From positions 62,001 through 126,000 of IMG/VR virus record IMGVR_UViG_3300032298_001311: a stretch of 64,000 nt of DNA. The stretch is one strand, 5' to 3'. The notes below the pieces were generated by a model. That model was not told where the DNA came from, made no database searches, and worked only from the letters and a program-made list of their open reading frames with translations. A program made the position numbers and the translations under genes. This DNA comes from a virus. Of the stretch, positions 10,444 through 59,929 are shown piece after piece. Each line of letters starts with the position of its first letter. Positions within the stretch are counted from its first letter, which is position 1.

Positions 10444-10743
10444 TTAGTCACGAGTAATAAAGTCCGCTAACATTTGTCTATACTTAGGTGGAATATCGTC
10501 GTAATATATTTCCTTTTCTTGTATAGCATCAACGTACTTATATAGCTCTAACCAATCTGGATCAGTTAAATCTTGATTAGTAAGATCAATATCGGCAAAT
10601 TTATTAAGTAAATATTCATTATAGAGAACATCTAAAGGTTTAAATATTTGTAATTTTTGATTAATTCTCTCTTTAAAATTTTCTAGTTCTTCTGTACTCT
10701 TCTTTGATTTGTTCCGTCTTTCATCATGACGTATTCTTTTTTT
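10444..10743 (-). CDS. ORF without a usual start codon, probably joined to the upstream gene by -1 frameshift
   Basis: About 99 codons in the -1 frame relative to the membrane coiled-coil gene, reading coding-like sequence through DLTDPDWLELYKYVDAIQ to ADFITRD. There is no ATG, GTG or TTG before its last ten codons. The frame opens inside the run of nine A at 10737-10745, where the upstream frame reads CCT AAA AAA AAA GAA. A -1 slip there gives a fusion of about 536 aa. A near-cognate start or an assembly homopolymer error are the alternatives. Confidence 0.6.
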   Translation of the reverse strand, partial: KKRIRHDERRNKSKKSTEELENFKERINQKLQIFKPLDVLYNEYLLNKFADIDLTNQDLTDPDWLELYKYVDAIQEKEIYYDDIPPKYRQMLADFITRD

Positions 10744-15679: not shown

Positions 15680-15871
15680 TTAATCTTCTTGATTGTCTGT
15701 TTTACCAGAGATTGATTTCATTAAGTCGAGATCATAATCAATTAGTCTTGCTAGTGCTTTTACAGCATTTTCCTGACTCACACCACCGGCGATCTTATCT
15801 TTAGACCACATTACATATTTGATTAGTGCGTTAATATCGTATGCGTTGGTATCTTCTAACTTGCCTGTCAT
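15680..15871 (-). CDS. Hypothetical protein (63 aa)
   Basis: Acidic helical protein (MTGKLEDTNAYDINALIKYV), no family recognised. It begins just after the 3' end of the tmRNA gene and could share its transcript; AGAGG lies about 7 nt before the ATG. Confidence 0.65.
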   Translation of the reverse strand: MTGKLEDTNAYDINALIKYVMWSKDKIAGGVSQENAVKALARLIDYDLDLMKSISGKTDNQED

Positions 15872-15884
15872 ATCATACCTCTGT

Positions 15885-16200
15885 AAGTTGCCAGATTCTG
15901 TTTCTAGGCTCTGGCGGGCCCAATGATCATGCTGCTAGAGCAATCTCAGAAGCAACGAAGTTATCGTTTGCATTTATTAATTTTATTGCGTTAACCGAGC
16001 TTTCGCCGGACCATCTACTTCAATCTTTATACGCCTGTCGATCCTTTTTCTGGCCCATCATAAACAGATAACACTCTCCATACCTTCTCGGTGATCAAGC
16101 CGAGGCCTACTTCGTTGAGCCTGCGTCCAGTTGTTATCTGTTTATGGTGGACCAGCCGGGTACCGCCCCCGGGTCCAAATCGTTTTATTACATTGACATC
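15885..16200 (-). ncRNA. ssrA: Circularly permuted (two-piece) tmRNA
   Basis: On the minus strand the acceptor piece comes first: T-arm CCGGG-GGCGGTA-CCCGG, acceptor strand CTGGTCC, discriminator A and CCA ending at 16145. Then an intervening segment (16057-16144) bounded by a 14-bp inverted repeat, then the coding piece starting at 16056 with GGGCCAG, which pairs with CTGGTCC over seven bp. GGATCGACAGG follows, then the tag frame, then a GCCAGA/TCTGGC hairpin ending at 15890. This order is that of alphaproteobacterial permuted tmRNA, which is cut into two RNAs. The outer ends are approximate. tmRNA rescues stalled ribosomes and tags the peptide for ClpXP. Confidence 0.93.
15927..15971 (-). 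other. tmRNA tag-peptide reading frame
   Basis: GCA resume codon to TGA encodes ANDNFVASEIALAA. It begins ANDN like alphaproteobacterial tags and ends LAA, the degron read by ClpX. The insert VASEIA makes it longer than the E. coli tag (10 aa encoded). Confidence 0.92.
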
Positions 16201-16213
16201 AACAATGATGAAT

Positions 16214-16244
16214 TATTTATAGCAGTATATTAAAAATAAGTCAA
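16214..16244 (-). promoter_or_regulatory. tmRNA promoter
   Basis: Minus strand TTGACT (16239-16244), 17-nt spacer, TATAAA (16216-16221) within an exact TATAAATA (16214-16221). The -35 box overlaps the stop of the upstream tail gene. Both host-type and late-type recognition are possible. Confidence 0.65.
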
Positions 16245-18112
16245 CCTTTACGGTTAACAAGCCCAGACTCACATCCTGAAGCAGATGCTGAACTTGCTGC
16301 TCCACCTTTGCAACTTTCTTCAAATTTTAAATGTAACCATCCTGTTTTGAACTGATTCATTTGAACTGTTACAGGTAAATTTTTCCTAGCCCAATCGGCT
16401 ATTTCCATTAATTTAGTAGGATTTGCAGGAAAGGCAACATCTACTACTTTTCCTTTAGCATGTTCACCACTCTCTCTATAACCACTAATAATAGAAATCA
16501 TAGGATATGCTTCTTTTAAAGGCTCTAATACATTTATAGCAACAGATGATAGATTTTTAATGACCTCATCTACTTCGGAGCCGCCTTTTCCTTTATTAAT
16601 TCTATGACTACCACCTTCAACCGCTGTACCTACAAGTTGCCATAAATCAAAATTTGGTGAAAGTGGCTGAGCATAATTAATATCTCTAAATCCCTTTGCA
16701 TTTTTCCCGTCATTAGGAGGTTGTTTTATTTTACATCCACCACCGCCACCACCACTATCTTGATTTCCACCCGATTGATCACTTCCAGGAACCTTTTCAG
16801 GTGCAGCATTGAATACTTGTTCAATTAAATTAGGTGCTGCTCCTTGTATTACAGGTGCAATTTGAGGAATAAGATTTTGTAAATTTCCAGGTAACATGTT
16901 AGTTAATTGAGAAACATTAAAAAGTCCCTGTGCAACATCGGCAGGTATAAATTGGTTTAATCCAGACAATAACATGCCGGCTGGGTTTGATAAATTCGAT
17001 GGTAAAATAGGAATAGAAGGAATAGCATTTCCTCCCATTGCAGCATTAACAATTGATCCCATAGGGTTTCTAGCAAATGTATTTGCTACACCAGTTATAT
17101 TAGCAGGAATAAAATTATTTAATCCAGTACTGTTTAAAGCTAACGAAACTGCTTGACTTAACGAATTTTGATCTAAAGGTATACCTGAATTTCTAGAAGA
17201 TCCGATAGATGTCTGTAAAACAGACAAGAATTGCGAAACACTTCCAGCATTCATAGTTTGATTATTCATTACTCCGGAAGTTATAGAAGATAGTTGTTGT
17301 AATGCTTGTTGTGGTATACCAATTGACGGTAATATAGAACGTAAAGCATTATTAGCAACGTAGCTAATAGCGTTTCCACCAACCATATTCATTAAACCAT
17401 TTAAATTAAATGCAGTTACATTAGGAACTCCGGTTAAAAGATTTGGAGGTATAAATGATTTTAATCCTGTAGGTAAATTATTCATAAAATTGCCTAATAT
17501 TTCATTAGGTATATTTTGAAGTAATTGTTCCATAGCTGGCATTTGTGTAGATATATTTTTAGCTACAGCACCAAGTGATGGTACAAGATCATCTGGTAAA
17601 CTACCCGGGTCTGCCATATCACCACATCCTGAACTTCCTCCTTCGCTATCCATACTTTTTACACCTAAATGTTTCATAGGTTGATGTTTATTACCTTTTT
17701 TAATTCTTTCAATAGCTTTTCTAGGTTCTTTAAGTTCCTTTTTCTTTTTATATTGTCCCTGTTGTCTTTCAGTTTCTTCGGTATCTGGTTGTGCAGGTTC
17801 TGCTTTCTCTTCGGAAGGCTTGCTATCTCCTTCTTGTCCACCGCCTGATTCGGGAGTTTGTCCAAATCCTTCTGGTGGTGGTTCGACTTTATTAGGCCAT
17901 TTTCCTCCACTGATCGGTGGATAAACAGCATTTGGATTAAAAGGAACCAATCTACCGAATCCATTTGCACTAGTATTAGCATTTGTAAATGATCCACTAG
18001 ATCCAGAAAAACCTGACGAATTAATTGGTTGATTATTAATCCATGATGACGGAGATGATGAAGTTGTTGCTCCTGTAGTAGCAAAAGTTCTTACTCCAAA
18101 TACTCCAGCCAT
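16241..18112 (-). CDS. Large tail-associated protein with C-terminal M15-like peptidase domain
   Basis: 623 residues. The first 170 are Ser/Pro/Gly-rich and disordered; 180-440 is an Asn/Leu/Ile/Pro repeat-like helical region; a Gly run near 455 leads to a C-terminal domain (about 480-600) with SGYRESGEHAKGKVVDVAF and GWLHLKFEE. The spaced His, Asp and His match the zinc ligands of M15-type D,D-peptidases/endopeptidases. It probably cuts peptide cross-links during DNA entry as part of the baseplate hub or tail tip. It sits next to a second wall hydrolase. Confidence 0.72.
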   Translation of the reverse strand: MAGVFGVRTFATTGATTSSSPSSWINNQPINSSGFSGSSGSFTNANTSANGFGRLVPFNPNAVYPPISGGKWPNKVEPPPEGFGQTPESGGGQEGDSKPSEEKAEPAQPDTEETERQQGQYKKKKELKEPRKAIERIKKGNKHQPMKHLGVKSMDSEGGSSGCGDMADPGSLPDDLVPSLGAVAKNISTQMPAMEQLLQNIPNEILGNFMNNLPTGLKSFIPPNLLTGVPNVTAFNLNGLMNMVGGNAISYVANNALRSILPSIGIPQQALQQLSSITSGVMNNQTMNAGSVSQFLSVLQTSIGSSRNSGIPLDQNSLSQAVSLALNSTGLNNFIPANITGVANTFARNPMGSIVNAAMGGNAIPSIPILPSNLSNPAGMLLSGLNQFIPADVAQGLFNVSQLTNMLPGNLQNLIPQIAPVIQGAAPNLIEQVFNAAPEKVPGSDQSGGNQDSGGGGGGCKIKQPPNDGKNAKGFRDINYAQPLSPNFDLWQLVGTAVEGGSHRINKGKGGSEVDEVIKNLSSVAINVLEPLKEAYPMISIISGYRESGEHAKGKVVDVAFPANPTKLMEIADWARKNLPVTVQMNQFKTGWLHLKFEESCKGGAASSASASGCESGLVNRKG

Positions 18113-34067: not shown

Positions 34068-34388
34068 ATGTTGAGTTACATTTATATAATCGGATCAGAC
34101 AAACCTCCTTACAAAATTGGAATAAGCAGAAATCCAGAACGTCGTTTGAAAAACATTCAAACAGGACATCCTCATAAATTACAGATTTGGGAATTAAGAG
34201 AGACAGATTCAAAGAGAACAAAATTATTAGAATCTGTCATTCACAAGCATCTCGTTAATTATAGAATGACAGGAGAGTGGTTCAATATTCCTTTAGAGGA
34301 AGCAAAACATCATGTTGATTTTGCTTTAATTAGATACGAAGATGATCCATTGTTAGAACATCTGGTAAAAAATAAATTAATTAGATGA
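34068..34388 (+). CDS. GIY-YIG-like protein (Mug113/T5orf172 type)
   Basis: 106 residues: MLSYIYIIGSDKPPYKIGISRNPERRLKNIQTGHP is a compact GIY-YIG-related core (Y-I-x-I ... YKIGIS ... R), and HKHLVNYRMTGEWF near the middle is typical of the Mug113/T5orf172 family. These are predicted nucleic-acid-binding or nuclease domains. The ATG at 34068 is chosen because the open frame before it overlaps the kdsB start on the other strand. Confidence 0.75.
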   Translation: MLSYIYIIGSDKPPYKIGISRNPERRLKNIQTGHPHKLQIWELRETDSKRTKLLESVIHKHLVNYRMTGEWFNIPLEEAKHHVDFALIRYEDDPLLEHLVKNKLIR

Positions 34389-35621
34389 ATTCATCCATTT
34401 AATTAAATCTGGTTCTAATATATCTTCATAATTTTCTAATCTATATGTATCAAGTTGTTTTGTTATTTTTACCAATTCTAATTTAAGAAATTCATTATCT
34501 AAGTTATGGGGTGAATTCATAAATTCGATAATTCCTTGGTATTGAGAATTAAAATGGTTTCTAAATCTTTCTTCTAAACAATTTATATGATATCTAAATT
34601 TTTCTTCAATTTTAATTTTAATATCTTTTGGTAATATTTGAATATTATAATAATTAGGATAATTTAAAATATTGTTTATTAGAATTTTATCGTGTGGCAC
34701 TCCTAATAGTAAAAGTTTATCAACTAATAAAGGAATATTGAAAATATTAAAAATTTGTGTAGTGGTGCTTATTCCTAATATAGATGGATTAAAATCTAAA
34801 ATTGTCTTTATATTTTTTTCGATAATTTTCCAATTTGTCCCACTTCTAATGTATTCCCCAATTCTATCACTACCGTCAATCGATGCATAAACTGATAAGT
34901 TATTTTCAAAATATTTCCAAAAATCTATAATATTTCTTCCTTTGTATTCTAATTTACTAATATTTGTATTATATCTTAATTTTACATAATTTCTATTTCG
35001 ATTAATTAATTCTTCTAAAATAAAATAATGTTCATCCATTAATAACGGCTCGCCACCAGCAAAATATATCTCCTCAACAACATCTATAAATTCTAACAAA
35101 TATTCTTTTATTGATTTTTTAGAATAATTGTCTATATGTATAAGTCTTGGGTCATTAATTGTTCCCCCTATACTTTCATTTAATTTTAAATGATCATCAT
35201 ACCAACTGCTACTTAATCTGCTCCCACACATTCTGCATTTAAAATTACAAATATTGCTAAATCTAAAATCCCAATAGATTAAATTAAATTTAGAGTATTC
35301 TCCGTCAATGTTTGTGTCTTCTACTGCTGATTTTATATGACTTGCAAAATTTTTATTAGATTCTTTTCTAAAACTATCTAAACCCAATTCTTCATTTAAA
35401 TAACACCTATCACAACTAGGATGTTTGGTACCATTAAGCATAGATTTTCTTAATGATTTAAGATAATCATTATTCCAAATTTCTTCTAATGACTGTTTTT
35501 TTGTATTCCCGCAACTATTTTTCCATTCTGTAGTACAACATTGATAAACATCGCCATTTGGCCAAATGTTTAGATGTATCCAAGGAAGTATACAAAATGT
35601 ATTGTTTATGGAGTTGTTCAT
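34377..35621 (-). CDS. Radical SAM protein B with N-terminal Cys module
   Basis: 414 residues. The order FCILPWIHLNIWPNGDVYQCC, SCDRCYLNEELG (extra Cys), then the radical SAM motif Cys125-Cys129-Cys132 (CNFKCRMC) and YFAGGEPLL. This is the phage/cyanobacterial 'twitch/SPASM-like' type in which an auxiliary cluster module precedes the radical SAM barrel. It is much more AT-rich in codon choice (Asn, Ile, Lys) than neighbours. Related to the proteins at 56079-59929. Substrate unknown. Confidence 0.87.
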   Translation of the reverse strand: MNNSINNTFCILPWIHLNIWPNGDVYQCCTTEWKNSCGNTKKQSLEEIWNNDYLKSLRKSMLNGTKHPSCDRCYLNEELGLDSFRKESNKNFASHIKSAVEDTNIDGEYSKFNLIYWDFRFSNICNFKCRMCGSRLSSSWYDDHLKLNESIGGTINDPRLIHIDNYSKKSIKEYLLEFIDVVEEIYFAGGEPLLMDEHYFILEELINRNRNYVKLRYNTNISKLEYKGRNIIDFWKYFENNLSVYASIDGSDRIGEYIRSGTNWKIIEKNIKTILDFNPSILGISTTTQIFNIFNIPLLVDKLLLLGVPHDKILINNILNYPNYYNIQILPKDIKIKIEEKFRYHINCLEERFRNHFNSQYQGIIEFMNSPHNLDNEFLKLELVKITKQLDTYRLENYEDILEPDLIKWMNSSN

Positions 35622-40908: not shown

Positions 40909-41904
40909 TCAAGCCTTAACTAAATTTTCAACGAATTGATCTGTTGCTGCTTCCCAAGAAAACTTTTGGGCACGAGCAATAGCATTTTCGCTAGGGATTT
41001 GAGAAGCATACAATATATTTCTTTCAAAATTGTCGCTTAATATCCCCGATTCCCGATGTGTAATAATATGACGATTGACTGGATTGTCAAATGCTGCTAC
41101 AGGTAATCCACAAGCCATTGCTTCAAGAACAACAAGTCCAAATGTATCTGTTAGCGAAGGCCAAGCAAAGACATCCATTGTTTGTAATAGTTTAGCGATC
41201 TCTTCGTGAGTCTTTCTACCTAAGAAAAACGCATCCGGATAACGAAGTTTATATGTTTCTAAATGTGGGCCATCACCGATAACATACTTTACAATTTTAG
41301 GATTGTCTATAGACAGGAATGCTTCTATGTTCTTTTCAACAGAGACACGACCAACATAAACAGCACGGATATTGTCACCTTGTTTTGTATAATTTGGATC
41401 TGGTTTGAATAATTCTGTATCCACACCTCGTCCCCAAATTCTTAATTTTTTGATACCATATTCAGTACAGTAATCAACCATGGCGGGGGTAGGTACCATA
41501 ACAGAATTGCTGTTTCTATGGAACCAACGAAAATACTTGCCAGTAATTCGTGGTGGTATACCAGCATGTTCATGAAGATAATCCGGGTACTGAGTATGAA
41601 AGGCTGTTGTATAATTCTTTTTATATTTCTTACAACTATGTCTCGCAGCAACACCAATAGATCCCTCCGTCGCTATGTGGATATACTCAGAGTCCTTCAC
41701 AGCGTCGTCGGCAATACCAAGAGGCATTAAAGGCATCCAAATACCTGTTGACGGTTGTATTGGAATAGTGAGTTTATACAAATTAGGATGAACTACATTT
41801 ACTTCCCAACCTCTCTTCTCAAGATGAGAAATGGTTGTTTTTAATGTAGTCACAACTCCGTTTATTTGTGGTTCCCAAGCATCTGTAAATATTGTTAGTT
41901 TCAT
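40909..41904 (-). CDS. agt: GT4-family glycosyltransferase, Agt-like (glycolipid synthase)
   Basis: 331 residues of the GT-B/GT4 fold: N-terminal TDAWEPQINGVVTTL, HTQYPDYLHEHAGIP, and C-terminal nucleotide-sugar motif TDTFGLVVLEAMACGLPV (residues 253-269, with Glu261 of the EX7E element). It overlaps plcP by ATGA. In marine heterotrophs the plcP-agt pair makes mono-glycosyl or glucuronosyl diacylglycerol to replace phospholipids under phosphate stress; this pairing and sequence style support the same role. The sugar donor cannot be told. Confidence 0.85.
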   Translation of the reverse strand: MKLTIFTDAWEPQINGVVTTLKTTISHLEKRGWEVNVVHPNLYKLTIPIQPSTGIWMPLMPLGIADDAVKDSEYIHIATEGSIGVAARHSCKKYKKNYTTAFHTQYPDYLHEHAGIPPRITGKYFRWFHRNSNSVMVPTPAMVDYCTEYGIKKLRIWGRGVDTELFKPDPNYTKQGDNIRAVYVGRVSVEKNIEAFLSIDNPKIVKYVIGDGPHLETYKLRYPDAFFLGRKTHEEIAKLLQTMDVFAWPSLTDTFGLVVLEAMACGLPVAAFDNPVNRHIITHRESGILSDNFERNILYASQIPSENAIARAQKFSWEAATDQFVENLVKA

Positions 41905-42653
41905 ATCAACCTCAGTAATTCGAATCTGCCGTCATAGTGTTCAACAATAGCAGTACATGATTCCACAAAGTCTCCAGTGTTCATGTATTCTATATTATCT
42001 ATTTTAGTAATGTTGGCATGGTGAATATGACCACACATAACTCCGTCAACATTTTTCTTACTGGCATAATCAACTACAACCTTTTCGTAATCGCCGATAA
42101 ACTTTACTGCTTCTTTAACTGAATGTTTCGCCCAAGCACTCAAACTAAATCCTCTAATGTTTATAGTTTTATAAATCCATTGTAGTTTAGAATTTAATTC
42201 CATAAGGAAATCATAAGCCCAACTTCCCATATGTACTAACCATTTAGCATTAGTAGTAACCAAGTCAAATTGATCACCATGTATAAGCAAATAGCGTTTA
42301 CCATTTACACCAATGTGGATAAAGTGATCAACAAGTGATATATTACCTAACACAAGTCCACTATGTTCTCTTAAGAACTCATCGTGATTACCTGTGATAT
42401 AAATGACTTGGTGATCTCGTTTGGATAATTTTAAAAAGTATTGGATAATATTACTGTGGGTTTGTGGCCAGTATGTTTTATTCTTCATTGCCCAACCGTC
42501 AATAATATCACCTATTAAGTAATAGCGTTCTGCTTCAGTATCTTTGAGGAATTCTAGCAATAATTCTGCGTTACAATATTTGGTGCCAAGATGGATATCA
42601 GACAGGAAAATGGACTTGTATTTTTTCTTTTTTTTCTTCTGGCTCTGTGTCAT
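41901..42653 (-). CDS. plcP: PlcP-type phospholipase C (calcineurin-like)
   Basis: 250 residues. All metallophosphoesterase ligands are visible: Asp19/His21 (LSDIHLG), Asp49 (IGDIIDGW), Asn89/His90 (GNHDEF), His125 (HGD), His209/His211 (CGHIHH). The extended features WPQTHSN, LSAWAKHSVKEAVKFIGDYE and YMNTGDFVESCTA match alphaproteobacterial PlcP, often misannotated as UDP-2,3-diacylglucosamine hydrolase. PlcP removes phospholipid headgroups to give diacylglycerol. A TATAAATA box lies 7 nt before the ATG; no Pho box is seen. Confidence 0.88.
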   Translation of the reverse strand: MTQSQKKKKKKYKSIFLSDIHLGTKYCNAELLLEFLKDTEAERYYLIGDIIDGWAMKNKTYWPQTHSNIIQYFLKLSKRDHQVIYITGNHDEFLREHSGLVLGNISLVDHFIHIGVNGKRYLLIHGDQFDLVTTNAKWLVHMGSWAYDFLMELNSKLQWIYKTINIRGFSLSAWAKHSVKEAVKFIGDYEKVVVDYASKKNVDGVMCGHIHHANITKIDNIEYMNTGDFVESCTAIVEHYDGRFELLRLI

Positions 42654-42660
42654 GTCCTAA

Positions 42661-42668
42661 TATTTATA
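42661..42668 (-). promoter_or_regulatory. Late promoter box of plcP-agt (TATAAATA)
   Basis: Exact TATAAATA on the minus strand followed by TTAGGAC and the plcP ATG; the AGGA may double as a ribosome-binding site. Confidence 0.55.
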
Positions 42669-42685: not shown

Positions 42686-42934
42686 TTATGCGTACTTCAT
42701 TATCCAAACCAGATAATCCTGTTCGCTTTCAAATTCTAAGTATTGCCAAACTAATGTATTATCCATTTTAGTAAGATGGCATTTAATATTATATTTCTCT
42801 TCTATTTTTCTAGCAAGTTCAAGATAGTAATCTGTTGGGTTGTGATATATACGACTTCGTTGAATGGTTAAAGGTATTAAACAATTTTGAAATGTTTTGT
42901 AGTTCTTTTCAACTTCTATGATATAGGACATCAT
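42686..42934 (-). CDS. Hypothetical small protein (82 aa)
   Basis: MMSYIIEVEKNYKTFQNCLIPLTIQRSRIYHNPT, ending FESEQDYLVWIMKYA. The end resembles the 'D-hydrophobic-LLRWS' ends of other small proteins here (see 44995, 47464). AAGGAAAT precedes the ATG. Confidence 0.65.
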   Translation of the reverse strand: MMSYIIEVEKNYKTFQNCLIPLTIQRSRIYHNPTDYYLELARKIEEKYNIKCHLTKMDNTLVWQYLEFESEQDYLVWIMKYA

Positions 42935-43649
42935 ATTTCCTTACTAAAAAGTTTAAAAATTTTTCTGCTAATAGTTGATGTCCTCTTTCAGACGGATGAG
43001 GACTAGAAATACATGTCTCTATATCAGACATATTTGTTATACATTCATCTATATTATTATTGTACCAAACAAAATTTTTACAATAATTTTTTTTAGTTTC
43101 ATCCAATTCTACTTTATTCATTGAAACGAAAAAGTATTTGATATCATGTTTTTCAAAAAAATCACCTAACATCAAAATCTCATTAAACATTTTTTCTTGC
43201 CATGCTTTTTCATGATTCCAAAAAAATTGAGACAATATCATTTTTTCTTCTTCTTTTGATAGTCTTCTTCTTGTTTCGGTGAAGACAATTTCGCTTTTAA
43301 CTAATCCCCAGCTATTTGATAATATGTCAAAAAATTCAAATCTGCTTGGTTCCGACCATTGAATAACAGCAATCCAATCTGACAAATCTTCTTTTTTATT
43401 AATTTTGTCTATAAAAAAATCTATAGTTTTTCTTATAATTCTATTATTAGATCCGCAGCCCATACTATGATTATGGAATTCAGAAAAAGATCCAATTTTA
43501 TGAAGTTGTCCTGGCCATGTTATACTCAATCTTTGTAAATTAATTAATGAAGTATTTGTTTCATCAAATAAATTTCCTTCATAATCATGAACATGTGTAA
43601 ATAGTCCACCACCCCATGTAAAAGAGCAACCAGAAGCAAATAATTTCAT
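42909..43649 (-). CDS. SGNH/GDSL-like hydrolase 1
   Basis: 246 residues. MKLFASGCSFTWGGGLF carries the GxSxT variant (GCSFT) of the SGNH nucleophile block; SMGCGSNNRI supplies the Gly/Asn blocks; HPSERGHQLLAEKF near the C-terminus has the catalytic His. Such phage esterases may deacylate surface glycans. Start ATG 43649 overlaps the DUF454 stop by ATGA. Two relatives are at 54369 and 61306. Confidence 0.75.
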   Translation of the reverse strand: MKLFASGCSFTWGGGLFTHVHDYEGNLFDETNTSLINLQRLSITWPGQLHKIGSFSEFHNHSMGCGSNNRIIRKTIDFFIDKINKKEDLSDWIAVIQWSEPSRFEFFDILSNSWGLVKSEIVFTETRRRLSKEEEKMILSQFFWNHEKAWQEKMFNEILMLGDFFEKHDIKYFFVSMNKVELDETKKNYCKNFVWYNNNIDECITNMSDIETCISSPHPSERGHQLLAEKFLNFLVRKYDVLYHRS

Positions 43650-44095
43650 CTTATCCAACCTATCTTCTCACCTTGTGCTATTCTTCTATTATATTCTTCT
43701 ATACTGGAAGGGTATCTCCAAGCCCATATTGCTACTGCTAACATAAACAAAGCAGTATAGACTATACCTCTCAAAGGTACATTTCCCGCAAACATCATTA
43801 TAAGACTTATTGACATAGTAAGCAACATAAGATATTTCATTTTAAGGGGAAACACTTGCTTCTCTGTCCAGTTAGTTAGAAATGGTCCAAATAGTTTATG
43901 ATTATAGATCCACTTGTGTAGTGTCTCACTACCATTACTAAAGCAGTAGGCAGCAAATACAACAAATGGTGAATAAGGCAAGCCAGGAGTAATAACTCCT
44001 ATATAAGCCATACCAAGTGACAGTATTCCTAATGTGTTCCAAAATATATTTTTCAATTTAATATTTTTAAGGAGCAAAATTAATTTGGTCAACAA
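43646..44095 (-). CDS. DUF454 (YbaN-like) inner-membrane protein
   Basis: About 149 residues; GVITPGLPYSPFVVFAAYCFSNGSETLHKWIYNHKLFGPFLTNW matches the YbaN/DUF454 core (GLPTTPF...H..FGP...W). Three or four membrane helices. The frame starts at a TTG (44095) inside the previous gene; a TTG at 44059 is also possible. The family role is unknown. Confidence 0.8.
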   Translation of the reverse strand: MLTKLILLLKNIKLKNIFWNTLGILSLGMAYIGVITPGLPYSPFVVFAAYCFSNGSETLHKWIYNHKLFGPFLTNWTEKQVFPLKMKYLMLLTMSISLIMMFAGNVPLRGIVYTALFMLAVAIWAWRYPSSIEEYNRRIAQGEKIGWIR

Positions 44096-44690
44096 TCTCT
44101 TTCAATGTTAATTCATAAGCAATTGTAAATTTATTTAAATTGCTTTGATTTTTTAAAGTTTTATGATATAGATTATTTTGGAAAATTACAACATCTCCTT
44201 CATCCATTTCAACTTCGTAATCAAAATAAGAATTATCTTGAGGTATTTCTAATATTAAATTCCCAGAATTTTCAGGTTTTTCTAAATATAAAATAACAGC
44301 GATCATGTCGTTTTGAGAATAAAATTTAGGTAAAGAATTTTCAAAAATGTATGTATGTCTATGTCTTTGAACATAAGTTCCTGGCGGATAATTGTTTGAC
44401 CACATGGCTGTGACACAGTAATCATCTTCATTCATATTGATACTTTTTATATAATTATTAACGTGGGGTCTTATGAAATCTAAATATGATGAAAGTTCAT
44501 CCCAAAGATAAAGATTTCTTCCGGAATTATCTTTATTAAAAAAAGAACAACTTCCTCCTATAATAAATTCACTGTTTAAATTATCTTTTGTATTATTTTC
44601 TATTACTTTATGTAGAATTAAATTTTTAAGAAAGTCGTTATCATTATACTTTACTTTGTAGATTTTTGTAATTCCGTCATCGTATAGCAT
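44067..44690 (-). CDS. Putative 2-oxoglutarate/Fe(II)-dependent oxygenase
   Basis: 207 residues. YPPGTYVQRHRHTYIFE (His110/His112), IAVILYLEKPENSGNLIL and GDVVIFQNNLYHKTLKN (His176) follow the double-stranded beta-helix layout of prolyl-hydroxylase-like oxygenases common in T4-like phages. The first iron site reads HxH instead of HxD, so activity is uncertain. Substrate unknown. Confidence 0.7.
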   Translation of the reverse strand: MLYDDGITKIYKVKYNDNDFLKNLILHKVIENNTKDNLNSEFIIGGSCSFFNKDNSGRNLYLWDELSSYLDFIRPHVNNYIKSINMNEDDYCVTAMWSNNYPPGTYVQRHRHTYIFENSLPKFYSQNDMIAVILYLEKPENSGNLILEIPQDNSYFDYEVEMDEGDVVIFQNNLYHKTLKNQSNLNKFTIAYELTLKEIVDQINFAP

Positions 44691-44994: not shown

Positions 44995-45219
44995 TTAGGA
45001 CCACCTCAATAAGAACATAGCATAATCTGTTTCTAATTCAAAGTACCAGATACTAAAATAATTGTGCCATTTACCATGTAAGTGTTTATCTGCCCACTCT
45101 CTCATTACCTCATTAGTTTTTATCATATTTTCAATAGTGCTATAAGCATAGGAATAATGATGCCATCCCTTAGTTTCTGTTAGGTGGTCTGTTAGTTTCT
45201 GTAAGTCATCATTACTCAT
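44995..45219 (-). CDS. Hypothetical small protein, RWS-tail family (74 aa)
   Basis: MSNDDLQKLTDHLTETKGWHHYSYAYSTIENM, ending ELETDYAMFLLRWS. The end is shared with 47464-47700 (DITCFLMRWS) and loosely with 42686 and 47258. The final codons AGG TGG TCC form a Shine-Dalgarno-like sequence for the next gene. Overlaps the GGCT gene by ATGA. Confidence 0.65.
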   Translation of the reverse strand: MSNDDLQKLTDHLTETKGWHHYSYAYSTIENMIKTNEVMREWADKHLHGKWHNYFSIWYFELETDYAMFLLRWS

Positions 45220-45635
45220 TCTTTAACATATGTCCGCTCTAATGTCATTTGTAGTTGTTCTGGATCTACACCATTCTCCAAATAGCCTTCCATACAATGG
45301 TTGTAATAAGATTCAGCAGGAGAAGATTCATATGACTGATCATTCATAATATAAACAAGTGCTCCGTGAGTCTCACTCTCGTATTCAACGTCAACAACAA
45401 TGCTTGTGTAGTAGTCTGGATAGCCTTCAAGTGCGTCAAGATTTTGGAGACATTCTTCTGTAATCTCCCAAAGCACACCTTCCATACTTGATTCAGGACA
45501 TTGTTCAATATCAGCATGTCCACGAAAGCGAAGTTCATAATCGTAAAGAGTTGCCTTGCCTAATAGTTGGGCATTAGGGCAGCGATTAGCCATGTTGGAT
45601 AAGTTGGTATTCATACCATATGCGAAGTATTTCAT
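45216..45635 (-). CDS. Gamma-glutamylcyclotransferase-like (GGCT/AIG2) protein
   Basis: 139 residues. FAYGMNTNL is the glycine-rich substrate loop (YGSN type), and LDALEGYPDYY holds the catalytic Glu. Members release 5-oxoproline from gamma-glutamyl compounds, or act as gamma-glutamylamine cyclotransferases. It lies near an amidoligase-like gene, whose gamma-glutamyl products it might act on; this link is inferred. A near-consensus promoter (45642-45670) precedes it. Confidence 0.87.
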   Translation of the reverse strand: MKYFAYGMNTNLSNMANRCPNAQLLGKATLYDYELRFRGHADIEQCPESSMEGVLWEITEECLQNLDALEGYPDYYTSIVVDVEYESETHGALVYIMNDQSYESSPAESYYNHCMEGYLENGVDPEQLQMTLERTYVKE

Positions 45636-45641
45636 ATTATT

Positions 45642-45670
45642 AGTATACTATAATGATTGAGTTATGTCAA
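45642..45670 (-). promoter_or_regulatory. Sigma70-like promoter of the GGCT operon
   Basis: Minus strand TTGACA (45665-45670), 17-nt spacer, TATACT (45642-45647), 7 nt before the ATG at 45635, so an almost leaderless transcript. Confidence 0.7.
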
Positions 45671-47241
45671 CTGCCTTGCGGAGTAGCGGATAGAACAACA
45701 GCACCAGGATTATCTTTCATAAAGAGTTTCATGGCTTCTTCTTTGGAGTTTGCTCTAACAACATCTTTACGCTCGCGATAATCAGTTTCACTTGGATTAT
45801 AACTGATAATAAAGTTCTGTCCAGGACCAAGTAGTGATTTCTCTTTGTCAGTATCTTGGCGAGACATCTTACGCTGTCTTAGATGTCTTAAGAGAATATC
45901 CTTTGGAACCTGTCCACTGCTATAGAGAGCGAACAATTTAATTGTTTGATCACCTTCTAATGTATTACCCATTATAAGTTTATAAAGTTTTGTATCGTAT
46001 TCTTTCTTATTCTTTGTTGGATTGCAAGCAATGTCAAGTGCTACAACAAATCTTAACATTGTGTTTGTTAGTTTGCCAATGTCTTGGTTAAGCCAATCGC
46101 CACCTGGTGAGCGGAACTCAAGTCTATTGTCTTGTATATTAAGAGTGACATACTTTTGTGTACGATTACTATGTATAAGTTTGGAAGCAATCTTACCAAG
46201 TCCTGCTCTCATTGCTTCAAGGTACGCAGGAACTTTATCTGGATTTACCTTAATAGCACTCTTAATCTTATCCATGGTACTATCAGCATAGTCATTCCCC
46301 AGTCTACCAAATTGTTCAGCGACCCAATTATCACCGACAAATAGTGCTAACTTCACATAGTCAAGGTTCTCAAGATCATAGTTAGGCACTGACACATTCA
46401 TATGTAAGCCAGTTGACTTATTTGTTTCACAACCTCTATTCTTCGCCCATTCTACAGTTTTGCGAAGGACATCAATCATCTTGTCTATTGGTAGTGGTGG
46501 ACTGACAAATTCTAATCCAGCACCATTTCCTCTAATGCTGCCATCTGGCTCAATAGTGAACTTCTTTGTGGATTTTGTTTGTCCGTGATATGAACTACTA
46601 ACATCAACACCAAGTCCGATAACTTCACTAAACTCTGCGCCAAGAAAATCTAATGACTCACTGCCACCTTCTGGCTCAGTGATGTAAGGCCAAGATAAGT
46701 CATACATACTACCAAAGGAACTGAATGTATTGATATCTGCGAATTCTAACCATTCTTGAATAATGGTACTACTATCGTAGGCATCTTCATACCATGCTTC
46801 TTTATATTTCTCGTATTCGTCATCGTAGAATTTACCATCGCTTGGTCGTGGAGCGGGACCGTCTTCGTTTTCTTCCCACCATCTTTCAAAACCATTATCT
46901 TCTGAGTCTTCTATAAATTGTTGGTCAATAAAACTCGTAAAGTCTTCGTTAGCACCTTCTAATGCTCTGCTAACTTCTCCGCTACTGTTGGAGAATTCAC
47001 CACTTTCAAAAAATTCGTGAATCTTTTGATCAAAGTCCTTCCAAGTTCTTGAACTGATTCGACTATCATAATCGTAGTCTGGTTCGTATTCTGGAAAGTC
47101 GTCTGGGTTCTCTATACCTGGAACAACCATTTCAAATTCCATGCCAACAAGGGCACCTTCAATTTGGGAAGCCATTGATTTTAGGCTTCCTGGGCTCATT
47201 TTTAGTTCATCAAGTTTTTGGTTAAATTCGCGAAGTCTCAT
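45667..47241 (-). CDS. Amidoligase-like protein with MRLREF leader
   Basis: 524 residues. The N-terminus MRLREFNQKLDEL is the capsid-targeting-like leader. The body has GMEFEMVVP near residue 35, GAGLEFVSPPLP about 240, TGLHMNVSVP about 280 and NRLEFRSPGGDW about 375, the pattern of the amidoligase_2 family (glutamine-synthetase-like fold that makes amide or gamma-glutamyl bonds). An acidic insert (60-190) separates the first motifs. If both signals hold, a ligase is packaged in the virion. ATAAATA ends 7 nt before the ATG. Confidence 0.75.
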   Translation of the reverse strand: MRLREFNQKLDELKMSPGSLKSMASQIEGALVGMEFEMVVPGIENPDDFPEYEPDYDYDSRISSRTWKDFDQKIHEFFESGEFSNSSGEVSRALEGANEDFTSFIDQQFIEDSEDNGFERWWEENEDGPAPRPSDGKFYDDEYEKYKEAWYEDAYDSSTIIQEWLEFADINTFSSFGSMYDLSWPYITEPEGGSESLDFLGAEFSEVIGLGVDVSSSYHGQTKSTKKFTIEPDGSIRGNGAGLEFVSPPLPIDKMIDVLRKTVEWAKNRGCETNKSTGLHMNVSVPNYDLENLDYVKLALFVGDNWVAEQFGRLGNDYADSTMDKIKSAIKVNPDKVPAYLEAMRAGLGKIASKLIHSNRTQKYVTLNIQDNRLEFRSPGGDWLNQDIGKLTNTMLRFVVALDIACNPTKNKKEYDTKLYKLIMGNTLEGDQTIKLFALYSSGQVPKDILLRHLRQRKMSRQDTDKEKSLLGPGQNFIISYNPSETDYRERKDVVRANSKEEAMKLFMKDNPGAVVLSATPQGS

Positions 47242-47257
47242 AGTTCTATATTTATTA

Positions 47258-47467
47258 TTAGAACTTCAGTAGCAACATCATTAGATCGCGTTCATCTCCT
47301 TGGACCCAAAGTCCTTTTTCAGAGGCTGTTAAGTATGTGATGTTGTAATGTCTTAAGAGCCAATGAGCAAAACTGTCATCATCCTTCCATTTACCTTCAT
47401 CCCAGTATGCTTTAAATATTTTCTCCATTTGCGGTTCAATGATATGAATATTCTTTAATTCGTTCAC
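47258..47467 (-). CDS. Hypothetical small protein (69 aa)
   Basis: Likely starts at GTG 47467, overlapping the previous TGA (GTGA) with AGGTGG as ribosome-binding site. Reads NELKNIHIIEPQMEKIFKAYWDEGKW and ends DERDLMMLLLKF, similar to the tails of its neighbours. Confidence 0.6.
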   Translation of the reverse strand: MNELKNIHIIEPQMEKIFKAYWDEGKWKDDDSFAHWLLRHYNITYLTASEKGLWVQGDERDLMMLLLKF

Positions 47468-47700
47468 GACCACCTCATAAGAAAACAAGTAATATCTTTG
47501 CTCTTGCCACTTATTTTAATATCACTATGATTTACATTAGTATATTCTAAATTATGTGTTTCTTTCAACCATTTAGCAAAAGTAGTAGATTTAGTATTAA
47601 AGATTGTTTTATAGTAATAATCCCACGCATGTTCTATGGGGCGTTCATATGTACCAAACTCAAAATCTTCGTAGATGATTTCTAAAAAGTTAGGCTTCAC
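47464..47700 (-). CDS. Hypothetical small protein, RWS-tail family (78 aa)
   Basis: MKPNFLEIIYEDFEFGTYERPIEHAWDYYY, ending SKDITCFLMRWS. Same size and end as the protein at 44995. The AGG TGG TCG codons act as the likely ribosome-binding site of the next gene. Confidence 0.65.
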   Translation of the reverse strand: MKPNFLEIIYEDFEFGTYERPIEHAWDYYYKTIFNTKSTTFAKWLKETHNLEYTNVNHSDIKISGKSKDITCFLMRWS

Positions 47701-48028: not shown

Positions 48029-48201
48029 AAGACTTTTTCCTTATTCCAATCTGCCCATTGCTGTGGATCCATGTAGTATTCCAGCACCACACTGATAGCA
48101 TTTTTTAAATCATCCTCATCGGCTATCTCATAGTCTCTCTTAAGACTTTCAATAACCAAACCGGTTATGATCTCATCATTAAAGTCAACACTAATCTTCA
48201 T
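48025..48201 (-). CDS. Hypothetical acidic protein (58 aa)
   Basis: MKISVDFNDEIITGLVIESLKRDYEIADEDDLKN to WADWNKEKVF. The ATG overlaps the previous gene by 11 nt and the stop overlaps the next start, giving a coupled chain. Acidic helical, function unknown; similar small proteins occur in T4-like marine phages. Confidence 0.72.
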   Translation of the reverse strand: MKISVDFNDEIITGLVIESLKRDYEIADEDDLKNAISVVLEYYMDPQQWADWNKEKVF

Positions 48202-48589
48202 CTTTCACATCCTTTACTACTTCTTCATATTCAGTTGGTAATCGTATTAGGTCTACACTTTCACTGTAATAGCCATTTGAGGTACCTAACCAACGAACGG
48301 TTACAGAACCCTTAATGGTGCGGAAGTTATAGAAAGTCCAAGTAGCACTTTCAAAATCACCGACTACGCCTTCCTGCGTATCCTCGCGAGCCTCGAGAAT
48401 TGGCACTCCTACAAGATCCTCGAGGTCACCGTGAATCTCCGCGATGCTCACACTCTCGCAACAATCCTGCTCATGGTAGAACTTGAAAGTAGGAACATCA
48501 CCTACTCCAACGAACAGCAATTCGTCGTCCTCAACCTTACCCTCAATGTGGTGGAAGGTTAATCCAATCAGATCATTGATGTCAGCCAT
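48191..48589 (-). CDS. Hypothetical protein (132 aa)
   Basis: Acidic beta-rich protein (MADINDLIGLTFHHIEGKVEDDELLFV...TVRWLGTSNGYYSESVDLI). The GTSNGYYSE turn and regular strands suggest a small beta-barrel. Overlaps the SWIM protein gene by one base. No family recognised. Confidence 0.7.
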   Translation of the reverse strand: MADINDLIGLTFHHIEGKVEDDELLFVGVGDVPTFKFYHEQDCCESVSIAEIHGDLEDLVGVPILEAREDTQEGVVGDFESATWTFYNFRTIKGSVTVRWLGTSNGYYSESVDLIRLPTEYEEVVKDVKDED

Positions 48590-49002
48590 TACAACGATTC
48601 CTGTATCTGTTTAATATGCTTACACTCAACCTTCTTACCTTTGCGGAAGGAGAAAGCAGGACAATCACATGTCCACTTACCGCTATCGTTGATTACATTA
48701 TATACAGATCCCTTACTGCCGTCAACTTGATAGCAGTGGAAATTAGAATTCTCTTTTACCTCTACGGTACTTTCTGCCAGATGCAGTTCTAATACTCTGT
48801 CTTTATCCAATATGCGAACAGGTGATTCTCTATTGTCCGTTGACAAACAGAACATGTCGCCCGTCATCCAATTTAATGACTTTAGGATCTTGCCGCGGTA
48901 CCAATTACGATCAGGCATACCTGGATAGCGAGCGGAAATTGGAAGTGGATTGGCAATGCAAACTTCAATATTTGTGCCAACTGCGGGAATAGCAAAAGTC
49001 AT
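48589..49002 (-). CDS. SWIM-type zinc-finger protein
   Basis: 137 residues. The C-terminal SGKWTCDCPAFSFRKGKKVECKHIKQIQESL is a SWIM zinc finger (CxCxnCxH), a nucleic-acid or protein-binding module. The N-terminal part is an uncharacterised beta domain. An extended -10 promoter (49021-49048) lies upstream. Confidence 0.78.
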   Translation of the reverse strand: MTFAIPAVGTNIEVCIANPLPISARYPGMPDRNWYRGKILKSLNWMTGDMFCLSTDNRESPVRILDKDRVLELHLAESTVEVKENSNFHCYQVDGSKGSVYNVINDSGKWTCDCPAFSFRKGKKVECKHIKQIQESL

Positions 49003-55131: not shown

Positions 55132-56094
55132 TTATCCTTTATCCTTAGGAATTATTATATCGGTTCCACAAGTACAATGATACTTATTACAAATTATTTT
55201 TAAAGGAGCAACCTTTGATACATCGCCTAAAATGTGACCAATCATACTTCCTTGGCCACAACTTGCCGCGCTCACATTTCCTCTCGGATTGATAAAAATA
55301 CTGTCTCCAATATTACATTTCCACCCTTGGAAGAAATTTAAACCTCGGACGATTAAATCGTTTGAGTTAACTGGTGCTATCTTATTATCACTATATCTAG
55401 CATAACTTACACAATTATTTTCTTTATAAGGTTTTGATTTAGTAAAGTTCATTTCTATATTATGATTTTTAATCCATTCTTGTTTATCAGGATCATTGTA
55501 CTTCCACGGACCGGCATTTATACTTAATTCGTCAAATAAAGGTGTCCATTCTAAAAAATAATTTGGTAGTTCTCTCTTTAATTTTTCTCCAAATTCTACA
55601 ACTTCCCAAAATCTTTCTTCGTGCATTAATAATTTTGATGAAAGATAATTAATCTTATCACATAGAAAAAAAGTATTATTGAAATATTTTTCTTTGTCAG
55701 CAAATTCTATATGAAAACTTGCTACAATGTCGTCAATCAGATGATAATTATTTTCCCACCACTTTAAAGGTCTACTCAAATTAGTATTAACTGCAATAGT
55801 GCAATCAGGTAGTACAGATTTTAACCATTTAACTATTGGAAGAAAGTTCTTCCAAGCAGTTGGTTCTCCACCGCTGAAAAAGAATTTAAAATCGTTGTAT
55901 CCGACATCTTTATATTTGTCAATAATAATTTCAAGATTTTTTATGTATAGAGATACATCCTCTTCATTCCGATCTCTTCCACTCCAATTACCTGGATTAC
56001 AATAACTACACTTATAATTACAGAAATTATTAACTTGCCATGTTACTGCTAGATAAGGCTTTTTAGATTCAATTGCAATTAGATCTGCGACCAT
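55132..56094 (-). CDS. Radical SAM protein C
   Basis: 320 residues. 4Fe-4S motif Cys25-Cys29-Cys32 (CNYKCSYC) near the N-terminus, FFFSGGEPTAW for SAM, SFHIEFADKE, and C-terminal Cys residues (NCVSYARY, GWKCNIGD, AASCGQGSM, CNKYHCTCG) that could bind auxiliary clusters, as in SPASM proteins. Like protein A, it lacks the N-terminal Cys module of proteins B, D, E and F. It overlaps the upstream gene by 16 nt. Substrate unknown. Confidence 0.88.
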   Translation of the reverse strand: MVADLIAIESKKPYLAVTWQVNNFCNYKCSYCNPGNWSGRDRNEEDVSLYIKNLEIIIDKYKDVGYNDFKFFFSGGEPTAWKNFLPIVKWLKSVLPDCTIAVNTNLSRPLKWWENNYHLIDDIVASFHIEFADKEKYFNNTFFLCDKINYLSSKLLMHEERFWEVVEFGEKLKRELPNYFLEWTPLFDELSINAGPWKYNDPDKQEWIKNHNIEMNFTKSKPYKENNCVSYARYSDNKIAPVNSNDLIVRGLNFFQGWKCNIGDSIFINPRGNVSAASCGQGSMIGHILGDVSKVAPLKIICNKYHCTCGTDIIIPKDKG

Positions 56095-57332
56095 TCGTAA
56101 ACCTCTCGTAATTCTGGTAGAGCATCGAATAACTTTTCTTTTCTAACTTCGTCTAATTCGTCATTAAACGAAAAGAATTGTTTAATTCCATCTTTGTTTT
56201 CTTCTCCAGATTTAAGAGTATTCAATACAGTTTTATATGCATTTCTGATTGATTCAGAATATGACAAATCTCTAAATACGTCGTCGTACATTGATGCTAT
56301 TCTATCTCTATAAAATTGTGGTAAAATTAATATAGAACAATACCAAGGATTAGTTAATATATTCAATCTAACTTCTCGATCCTTGTGTAAAAATCCTTTT
56401 TCAATCCAATCTTTATGGAATTGTGGAAACTGATGAAGATTCCAAATAGAAATTGTAGGAGTTAGTTCAAATCTTATGTGTGGAACTTCTTTTAAAATCA
56501 TTCTAGCATTTTCTTCTATTTGATTCCAATCGGTACCTTTTCTCATAAATTCAGCCAATGGTCCGCTTGCATCTAAACTAGCGTAAATTTCAACAAACTG
56601 AAATTTTCTCCAATACTTTAAAATATCTTTATTTTTATAATTCAATTGGCTAAAGTTTGTAGTATACGTAATTCTTACATCTGTTTTATTATGTTCTAAC
56701 CAATAGTCTAATATTTTATAATGTTCTGGAGTAATTAATGCCTCACCTCCAGCAAAATAAACTTCATCAACATCGAGCAAATGCGGTTTTAGTTTTTCCC
56801 AGAACGATCCATCATCGTTATTGCTAACAACTATTTTTTCTAAACCGAAACGAGTTTTTAATCTAGCTTCACCATATCTTTCTCGGTATTCAGATGCCCA
56901 TTGACTACTACAGGAAGGTCCACAACTACGACATTTCATATTACAAATATTACTAAAACGAATATCCATATATTTTAATTCAAATTTGTCTATACTACCA
57001 TCGTCATTCGTAGCATTTACTTGATCCAAATTTGCAATACCTCTTACAGTATTTTGACTTTGTCTTAAACTCCAAGTTCCAAATAGTTCTACATCATAGC
57101 ATCTTTTACATATATCACTAGGAACATCATTAAGCATGTTTAATCTTAATTCTTTAAATTTTTCCGAATTCATCATATCAAGGAGAGTATCATGTTCGGT
57201 CAAATTTGTTAGAGGTTTAGATGAATCAGCCATACAGCAAGGAAAAACTTTACTATCTGGCCAAGCATGGAAATGTAACCAAGGAAGTATGCAAAAGTTT
57301 TTTGTATAAAAAATATCTTCAGAGGCTTTCAT
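56079..57332 (-). CDS. Radical SAM protein D with N-terminal Cys module
   Basis: 417 residues. FCILPWLHFHAWPDSKVFPCCMA and ICKRCYDVELFG form the N-terminal Cys module; the radical SAM motif is Cys130-Cys134-Cys137 (CNMKCRSC), then YFAGGEALI where the usual GGEP is GGEA. SLDASG is kept. It follows AAGGAG and overlaps protein E's end by 14 nt. Confidence 0.88.
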   Translation of the reverse strand: MKASEDIFYTKNFCILPWLHFHAWPDSKVFPCCMADSSKPLTNLTEHDTLLDMMNSEKFKELRLNMLNDVPSDICKRCYDVELFGTWSLRQSQNTVRGIANLDQVNATNDDGSIDKFELKYMDIRFSNICNMKCRSCGPSCSSQWASEYRERYGEARLKTRFGLEKIVVSNNDDGSFWEKLKPHLLDVDEVYFAGGEALITPEHYKILDYWLEHNKTDVRITYTTNFSQLNYKNKDILKYWRKFQFVEIYASLDASGPLAEFMRKGTDWNQIEENARMILKEVPHIRFELTPTISIWNLHQFPQFHKDWIEKGFLHKDREVRLNILTNPWYCSILILPQFYRDRIASMYDDVFRDLSYSESIRNAYKTVLNTLKSGEENKDGIKQFFSFNDELDEVRKEKLFDALPELREVYEWSQI

Positions 57333-58578
57333 ACCAACTCCTTAATTCTGGAAATGTTTCAACAAATAATTCATTACGAACTCTATCAATTGTATCAATG
57401 TGTGACTTCATAATATGATTAGGTATCGGAGTATCTTCTAAAGGTTGTGCCATATATTCCTTAATCTCATTAAGTCTATCAACTAATCCTCCGGATATAT
57501 TCCATTCTCTTTGTTTAATATAATTGTTAATCTTGTCAATTCCGGTAGCTCTTAATTCTAAAGGAAGATGTTTTAATGATTGCCACGAAGGTGTTATTTG
57601 TCTATAGAGGGTTGCTCTGCTAGTCAAAGGATCAAACAATCCTCTATCTTCGAGATCCTCAAGAAAGTCAGTTATGGTCATACAATTCCATAATCCTACT
57701 ACAGCATTATATTCAATCTTTACATTAGGGCATTCATTCTTAATTTTTGTTAAATTAAAAACTACTTCGTCCCAATTAGTACCGCTTCTAATATATTCTG
57801 CTCTTTTGCCCCAACTATCAATACTCGCATAAAGATCTATTTCTTTAAAGTGCTTCCAATAGTCAATAATGTTTTTGCTTTTATAATTTAAAACACTAAC
57901 ATTACTGTTATATCTTAACAATGCTTCTGTTGAGTTATTTTCTATTAAAAAGTCTAATATCTTATAATGTTCAGGAGTAATTAAAGGTTCGCCGCCTGCA
58001 AAATAAACCACCTTCATAAATGGTAGATGAGGTTTAAATTGTTCTAATAACTGATCATTATTATTAGTTGCTTTTATAAAGACTTGATAGTCCGGATTAT
58101 CTTTTTCCCAATTTGCCTTTGCTTCTTGAGCCCAAGCAGAAGAAAACCAATCCCCACAAGTCCTACATTTAAAATTACAAATGTTACTCCATCTAACATC
58201 GAAATATCTTAATTTCATTTCATCAATGGAGCCATCCTCGTTAGTTTCTTCAACTTGAGTTATAAACTCTTCGAAGTCTCTATTTGCCCATTGTCTAAAT
58301 GATGTAGGAGATTGATCGTCAGCAGTAGCATTTTCGTGAATATAACAAGTTTCACAATGTGGCGACTTTTTTCCTTGTAACATATTCAATCGAAGTTGTT
58401 TATATTCTTCACTATTCCAAACTTCTTCAATTGTATTAGTTCTAACATTACCTAGAGGAAAATCATATTTTGCTGTGCAACAAGGATATACATCACCAGT
58501 TGTATTGATATACTGGTGTATCCAAGGCATTATGCAAAATGATGGATTATTGAATAATTCTTCTTTATCTATTTTCAT
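57319..58578 (-). CDS. Radical SAM protein E with N-terminal Cys module
   Basis: 419 residues. FCIMPWIHQYINTTGDVYPCCTA and HCETCYIHENA, then Cys134-Cys138-Cys141 (CNFKCRTC) and YFAGGEPLI. Clear paralogue of B and D. ATG 58578 (MKIDKEEL) is favoured over the GTG at 58590 because GGGA lies 7 nt upstream. Confidence 0.88.
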   Translation of the reverse strand: MKIDKEELFNNPSFCIMPWIHQYINTTGDVYPCCTAKYDFPLGNVRTNTIEEVWNSEEYKQLRLNMLQGKKSPHCETCYIHENATADDQSPTSFRQWANRDFEEFITQVEETNEDGSIDEMKLRYFDVRWSNICNFKCRTCGDWFSSAWAQEAKANWEKDNPDYQVFIKATNNNDQLLEQFKPHLPFMKVVYFAGGEPLITPEHYKILDFLIENNSTEALLRYNSNVSVLNYKSKNIIDYWKHFKEIDLYASIDSWGKRAEYIRSGTNWDEVVFNLTKIKNECPNVKIEYNAVVGLWNCMTITDFLEDLEDRGLFDPLTSRATLYRQITPSWQSLKHLPLELRATGIDKINNYIKQREWNISGGLVDRLNEIKEYMAQPLEDTPIPNHIMKSHIDTIDRVRNELFVETFPELRSWYESL

Positions 58579-58579
58579 A

Positions 58580-59929
58580 TTAATTCCCACATGAATCGTA
58601 AAATGTTTTCATCTCTGGAAAAGTTTCTTTAAAGTTAGTTCCACGTCGTCTATCATATTCATCGAACCACTTATAAAAGTCAACTTGACCTTCTATTATT
58701 TTTTCAAATGGATACTTTGTAGTTTCCATATACTTAACAACTCTTCTAAACTTTTCAATTTCTAATTGTGAAAATTTACAAGGATCATTATCATCGTGAT
58801 TGTTCATCATAAATTCTAAAGACTCATACATGTAAGGCATGAATTCATCTTTTGGAAGAATATTCATATCATATTGTAACGGTTCTTTCAAATAAGGAGT
58901 ATCGAATTTAATTTTATCTCCTCCATATTTCTTACGCCATAGAAGTATTCTTTCTAATAATGATTTAAAACTAGTAACAGTTAAAATATTAAATGTAATC
59001 ATAAGACGTATAGGATTGTTTGTTGAAGTAAGATAATGATCTAAATTCTTTTCCCAAACATTTAAGTCTAAACCTGTTCTAATATATTCTGCTCTAGGTC
59101 CCCAAGTATCTATACTAGAGAATAGACTAAAATTTCTAATCTTATTTTCGTCTTGTAGCTTTTTTATTTTAGTTGTCATTCTTTCTACAAGAATATTCTT
59201 TATTCCTAGATTACTGTTAATATTGAGTTCTAACCAAGGCAATGGCTCTTCATCAATTGACTCTAACAGTTTCCATGTACTATTCTGTAATAATGGTTCG
59301 CCACCTGTTATTCTTAAAATGTTAAGTGTTTTCTTAACTTCTGGCCACCACTTCCACCATGCATCTACATAAGGATTTTCTTCTTCCTTATGATATATCT
59401 TAAACCAATCAATATCGTTTCTATGATTCTTTACAGCTCGATAAGGACCGTGTTGTTCTATTTCCTTATAATAAGAACTAGATGCTTTTGGGTGACAATA
59501 TCCGCATTTAAAATTGCATTCGTGGCCAAAACTTATTTCAATATATTCTGGATTTATATTGCCATCCCAAGATAAATTCTTTATTTCTTTAAATCGTTCT
59601 TCGGTAAAGATACTAGCATTTCGTTCATGCCGATCACTTACATAATCAGACCCTAATTCTTCGATATTCCAACAATACTTGCATCCTGCTGGTTTCTCAC
59701 CATCTAACATAGCTTTTCTTTGTATTTTCTTTTCGTTAGTGTTATGTAAAGCACTAGGGTTATTTTGTAATTCAGTTAGAGGTATTGAGTGAGGAGCCGG
59801 ATGATAACAACTATGTGTTTCTCCTGTTTGAAGATAAATGGTAGTATGATGCCATTTTGCTAAACAAAAAGTACAGCTTATGGAATCGGTGATTTTTTTG
59901 ATTTCTTGAATTTTATTAATGTCTGACAT
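58580..59929 (-). CDS. Radical SAM protein F with N-terminal Cys module
   Basis: 449 residues. SCTFCLAKWHHTTIYLQTGETHSCYHP and GCKYCWNIEELG, then Cys138-Cys142-Cys145 (CNFKCGYC) and LRITGGEPLL. It is the most divergent of the four, with an insert at about 165-185 (DIDWFKIYHKEEE). It is the first gene of the tandem set; the stop is one base from the next ATG. Confidence 0.88.
   Translation of the reverse strand: MSDINKIQEIKKITDSISCTFCLAKWHHTTIYLQTGETHSCYHPAPHSIPLTELQNNPSALHNTNEKKIQRKAMLDGEKPAGCKYCWNIEELGSDYVSDRHERNASIFTEERFKEIKNLSWDGNINPEYIEISFGHECNFKCGYCHPKASSSYYKEIEQHGPYRAVKNHRNDIDWFKIYHKEEENPYVDAWWKWWPEVKKTLNILRITGGEPLLQNSTWKLLESIDEEPLPWLELNINSNLGIKNILVERMTTKIKKLQDENKIRNFSLFSSIDTWGPRAEYIRTGLDLNVWEKNLDHYLTSTNNPIRLMITFNILTVTSFKSLLERILLWRKKYGGDKIKFDTPYLKEPLQYDMNILPKDEFMPYMYESLEFMMNNHDDNDPCKFSQLEIEKFRRVVKYMETTKYPFEKIIEGQVDFYKWFDEYDRRRGTNFKETFPEMKTFYDSCGN

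Follow-up and report, generated by a model that had tools for sequence, protein, structure and literature searches.

The closest described system is the bacterial plcP-agt operon, whose function has been described (PMC4796936, PMC9239053) and which occurs as a 'type 2' neighbourhood in SAR11 HTCC7211, Erythrobacter NAP1 and Methylosinus OB3b; PhoB sites have been reported for bacterial plcP genes, and SAR11 plcP served to complement a plcP mutant of a laboratory alphaproteobacterium (PMC4796936). The glycosyltransferase of SAR11, GTcp, produces glucosyl-, galactosyl- and glucuronosyl-diacylglycerol, and all or nearly all of its activity is lost in mutants of G16, G82, G85, H104, R163, R190, K195, D256, T257, F258, G259, E264 or W320, with more than 90% lost even in D256E (PMC8231724). 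Phage genes that act on host membrane lipid are represented by the cyanophage desaturases (reference 17 in PMC11480375), whereas PstS-like proteins, such as that of Pelagibacter phage Mosig, possibly supply phosphate during infection. No published account of a phage plcP-agt pair was found in the open-access literature.

In this study, we analyzed a window of 64,000 nucleotides (bases 62001-126000 in a virus record 128,772 bases long), in which a sequence-only reading had proposed a phage-borne PlcP-Agt operon for membrane lipid remodelling. Both genes lie on the minus strand, plcP first (41901-42653, 250 aa) and then a GT4 glycosyltransferase gene (40909-41904, 331 aa), and the ORF coordinates confirmed that they are coupled by the claimed ATGA overlap, with a shared stop/start at 41901-41904. 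A 4-nt overlap was the commonest spacing among viral pairs (23 of 75), and it also occurred in low-GC, small alphaproteobacterial genomes. Gene order, overlap type, enzyme families and key residues are thus those of the bacterial operon. However, the window pair is phage-carried, falls within its own viral clades, shares 50% (PlcP) and 44% (GT4) identity with the best host genes found, and has a late-promoter-like box and no Pho-box signal. In contrast with the desaturases, it represents a predicted phospholipid-for-glycolipid exchange pathway that releases phosphate, and unlike the uptake served by PstS-like proteins, it would mine the internal phosphate of the membrane. The view that this is likely a phage-borne lipid-remodelling operon is supported, at the sequence level, by the enzyme families and their key residues, by the coupling, by the long shared inheritance of the two genes in phages and by the late-promoter-like element. 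The pathway is already known in bacteria; here it is found as a module that is widespread among phages and under a control of its own.

We consider the identity of the two enzymes highly probable. The phosphoesterase matched Pfam Metallophos at 4e-10, and the metal ligands of a calcineurin-like enzyme were all present as claimed, with no variation at D19, H21, D49, N89, H125, H209 or H211 in the viral and host alignments. As for the segments proposed to be specific for PlcP, WPQTHSN and YMNTGDFVESCTA were both found, but 'YMN.GD' was not universal, occurring in 104 of 135 viral and 23 of 123 host homologues, and the conserved core is better written as Y-x-N-x-G-D-x-x-E-x-C. LpxH has the calcineurin-like fold and the metal ligands in common with the window protein, but an LpxH identity was rejected, as the earlier reading had implied: curated LpxH models gave 50.8 bits (cut-off 134) and 41.4 bits (cut-off 190), the window protein has GNHD (GNH[DE] in 135/135 viral and 123/123 host homologues) whereas E. 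coli LpxH has GNRD, and LpxH was a very distant outgroup in a 94-row PlcP tree. In this tree, whose reference rows are relatives of the tested PlcPs from related genera or families and not the tested sequences themselves, the window protein clustered with bacterial PlcP, as one of the 14 members of a viral clade (SH-aLRT 99) inside a broad bacterial set. Its top bacterial matches were from Hyphomicrobiales and other alphaproteobacteria (47-53%), and a PlcP homologue was present in 100 of 289 sampled alphaproteobacterial genomes. The AlphaFold model was of moderate confidence (pLDDT 81.5, below 60 in the lid helices), and its closest solved calcineurin-type fold was LpxH. Such a fold would be expected for PlcP and LpxH alike and does not decide between them; the choice of substrate, predicted to be glycerophospholipid for a Mn2+-dependent phospholipase C of this type, therefore rests on sequence. 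The link to a synthase of non-phosphorus lipid that characterizes PlcP was also found, in the form of the overlapping Agt-type GT4.

The second gene was correctly read as a GT4 glycosyltransferase and could be assigned to the Agt type, predicted to act as a diacylglycerol glucosyl/glucuronosyltransferase. It matched Pfam Glyco_transf_4 (1e-16) and Glycos_transf_1 (2e-21), and all 13 residues essential in GTcp were kept (G16, G81, G84, H103, R159, R186, K191, D253, T254, F255, G256, E261 and W317), including the unusual catalytic Asp that marks the Agt/GTcp group in place of the usual Glu. Nearly all of 82 viral and 90 host GT4 homologues also keep these residues, and the T162 position was variable in hosts and phages alike. 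In a tree with a single non-Agt GT4 as outgroup and, as the Agrobacterium row, a congener of the tested strain, the window protein fell into the group of the Agt-type GT4 of Agrobacterium and the GT4 linked to plcP, apart from other GT4. It differs from GTcp and Agt in its place on a long stem inside the Agt-like set, within a 14-member viral clade (support 100). A GT-B fold was modelled with high confidence (pLDDT 92.3), and the nearest structure was MshA.

Searches of IMG/VR, which returned 147 relatives for PlcP, of which 80 were kept, and 58 for the window GT4, revealed that the pair is recurrent in phages. After removal of five duplicate contigs, PlcP followed by GT4 on the same strand was found in 75 contigs, mostly with an overlap of 4 or 1 nt. 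PlcP adjoined 53 of the 58 GT4 loci (52 upstream and one downstream), and the other five were cut off at a contig end, so every viral GT4 locus with room adjoins PlcP. Among 19 phage records (18 from IMG/VR and cultured phage Mosig), T4-type gp23 was present in 12 and terminase in 13. Distances of PlcP and GT4 among 34 viral pairs were closely correlated (Mantel r = 0.89; 0 of 999 permutations as high), which argues that the operon is old in phages. Compared with SAR11, Roseobacter and rhizobial genes, the window pair was not particularly close to any. The idea that the pair was recently acquired from a host, be it SAR11, rhizobia or another, was not supported, given the long stems of the viral clades, and the clade of the window is viral. 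Almost no conserved neighbours other than the pair itself were observed in relatives, except for genes at 48191-49002, common to one close relative. A 1.6 Mb alphaproteobacterial genome of 29% GC was observed to carry two plcP-agt operons (L263:2871-4674 and 9131-10929), which are oppositely oriented and separated by about 4.5 kb.

The control of the operon appeared to differ from that in bacteria. The box noticed 7 nt before the plcP ATG, TATAAATA, is present at 42661-42668 on the minus strand. Its plain count in the window was not above chance (6 versus 11 expected), which rejected significance by count, and therefore placement and conservation were tested instead. ATAAATA occurred upstream of plcP in 14 of 20 non-redundant relatives, but in 0/20 in a control zone 300 nt away and in 0/91 bacterial plcP genes. 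Within the window, 14 of 19 occurrences of NATAAATA were located on the coding strand of a gene and no more than 60 nt upstream of it, compared with 14% for permuted octamers (p ~6e-9); this box is the T4 late-promoter consensus. Boxes like TATAAATA thus lie upstream of genes on the coding strand, as in T4-type late promoters. All six copies of TATAAATA in the window (7665, 9658, 15648, 16214, 42661 and 51433, minus strand) are on the coding strand and close upstream of genes including dnaK, except one inside a tmRNA match; such positions suggest a set of late promoters of the phage. On the other hand, using a simple 14-base score with at least 11 matches as a site, Pho-box-like sites were found upstream of 20/72 bacterial plcP genes (0/72 shuffles), but in only 1/19 of the window clade and 3/37 other phages. 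PhoB control is usual for PlcP, although not defining, and the best Pho-box match in the window was 9/14, in agreement with the reported lack of a Pho box. It appears from these sequence comparisons that host PhoB control was replaced by a phage late-promoter-like element, which favors the earlier suggestion of phage timing. The 7-nt distance from box to ATG is odd and would leave the mRNA almost leaderless.

Other phage designs around PlcP were also observed. In 26 viral loci, PlcP was accompanied by a GT2 glycosyltransferase about 235 aa long, which in most cases directly precedes it with an overlap of about 20 nt (L015:4322-5026 with L015:5007-5750, and 25 more, e.g. L047, L056 and L062), and neither GT4 nor GT2 adjoined PlcP in 28 loci. 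The GT2 partner is highly conserved, and 11 of 11 members tested also matched Pfam GT21, a family that includes processive diacylglycerol glycosyltransferases (PMC8231724). None of the host loci examined had it next to plcP, and a search of 190 alphaproteobacterial genomes, run without a positive control, gave no match at 1e-20. The plcP gene of cultured phage Mosig, which carries the annotation UDP-2,3-diacylglucosamine hydrolase, lacks an adjoining glycosyltransferase and is divergent from an adjoining gene for a PstS-like phosphate-binding protein (L001:6888-8723).

According to the proposed mechanism, PlcP would split the phosphorylated head group from glycerophospholipids of the host (PG, PE or PC), leaving diacylglycerol, and the translationally coupled GT4 would transfer a sugar from UDP-glucose or UDP-glucuronate onto the diacylglycerol, so that phosphate would be freed while the membrane stays filled. 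Enzyme activity, timing in infection and benefit are all predicted in this scheme. There is about an even chance that phosphate for replicating phage DNA in the late phase is the main benefit. The same enzymes might instead have been selected for an altered membrane (its charge or curvature, the blocking of a second phage, or easier lysis or assembly), which we regard as a serious but less probable explanation. Late-promoter-like control would place expression in the assembly and lysis phase, loss of the Pho box uncouples the operon from phosphate status, and lipid make-up affects phage attachment in the case of Ruegeria aminolipids (PMC9938194). However, phage DNA synthesis still proceeds in the late phase, and the PstS-like gene beside plcP in Mosig provides a link to phosphorus in a cultured phage. 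Of the two purposes left side by side by the sequence-only reading, we slightly favor phosphorus for DNA over a late change of the membrane. The variety of partners raises the further idea that PlcP alone matters, the need of the phages being for released diacylglycerol or phosphate, and that the glycosyltransferase is exchangeable or optional, with diacylglycerol capped by GT4, GT2 or host enzymes depending on the lineage. The GT2-partnered contigs, the loci with neither enzyme adjoining and the GT21 match, which indicates a class of processive lipid glycosyltransferases, are compatible with this idea, but it seems rather unlikely, as in the clade of the window itself GT4 is never missing and is inherited together with PlcP. 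A broader scenario, for which we see slightly less than an even chance, is that T4-like phages moved the bacterial lipid pathway of phosphate starvation from PhoB control to that of phage late promoters, so that phosphate for virion DNA is drawn from the host membrane, and that the second step is carried out by two unrelated glycosyltransferases, GT4 or GT2, in different lineages.

Two more alternatives concern the identity and origin of the genes rather than the purpose of the exchange. An LpxH-like phosphoesterase acting on lipid A precursors, together with a GT4 modifying LPS, would agree with the nearest solved folds and with the annotation of phage copies as UDP-2,3-diacylglucosamine hydrolase; the low LpxH model scores, the GNHD/E motif in every viral copy, the distant position of LpxH in the tree and the coupling to an Agt-type GT4 make it very improbable. 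Likewise, a chimeric contig or a piece of host chromosome, which would make the pair bacterial, might be suspected from cell-like genes in the record (DnaK, FtsH and Clp ATPase) and from the terminase and gp23 profiles, which found no match in the 128.8 kb record although the gp23 profile did match related phages. However, the record contains phage-type genes for baseplate and tail-fibre proteins, ribonucleotide reductase, ligase, exonuclease and polynucleotide kinase, the nearest pairs are all viral and on contigs with capsid or terminase genes, and a terminase-bearing relative shares the genes at 48191-49002 with 94-96% identity. This origin is hardly credible and already largely refuted, and since those profiles had no match, the record is probably a fragment of a phage genome.

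If the preferred reading of a phage lipid-exchange operon is true, phages would take phosphorus from the membrane of the living host, a source missing from models of viral production in phosphorus-poor water. Infected cells would also make glycolipids regardless of phosphate, and environmental glycolipid or plcP signals would partly report infection. Because phage copies are annotated as LpxH and 'lpxH' is listed in surveys of viral genes from the Eastern Mediterranean and from Lake Baikal, the phage PlcP pathway may have been overlooked under the wrong name.

Some other features of the record were observed. A permuted tmRNA gene of alphaproteobacterial type is located at 15836-16248 on the minus strand (RF01849, 123 bits), and RF01849 was above cut-off in 7 of 16 related phages, Mosig included. 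Two-piece phage tmRNA is already known, and phage Melnitz, which carries an alphaproteobacterial two-piece tmRNA, infects OM43 (PMC9004378); the tmRNA is therefore only a hint of an alphaproteobacterial history of the phage. Together with the tmRNA, genes for DnaK, a ClpA/B-type ATPase and an FtsH-type membrane protease (window 7705-9618, minus strand; record bases 1760-4027 and 45719-47536, minus strand) make up a protein quality-control set. Directly upstream of plcP, overlapping genes encode a DUF6071 protein, a DUF454 membrane protein and a 2OG-Fe(II) oxygenase (42909-44690, minus strand), whose conservation near the pair was not seen in relatives. The window also has at least five radical SAM genes (34377-35621 and 55132-59929, minus strand), and four of these follow one another almost without a break. 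Finally, an amidoligase gene adjoins a gamma-glutamyl cyclotransferase gene at 45216-47241 (minus strand), possibly representing a peptide-making or peptide-trimming pair.
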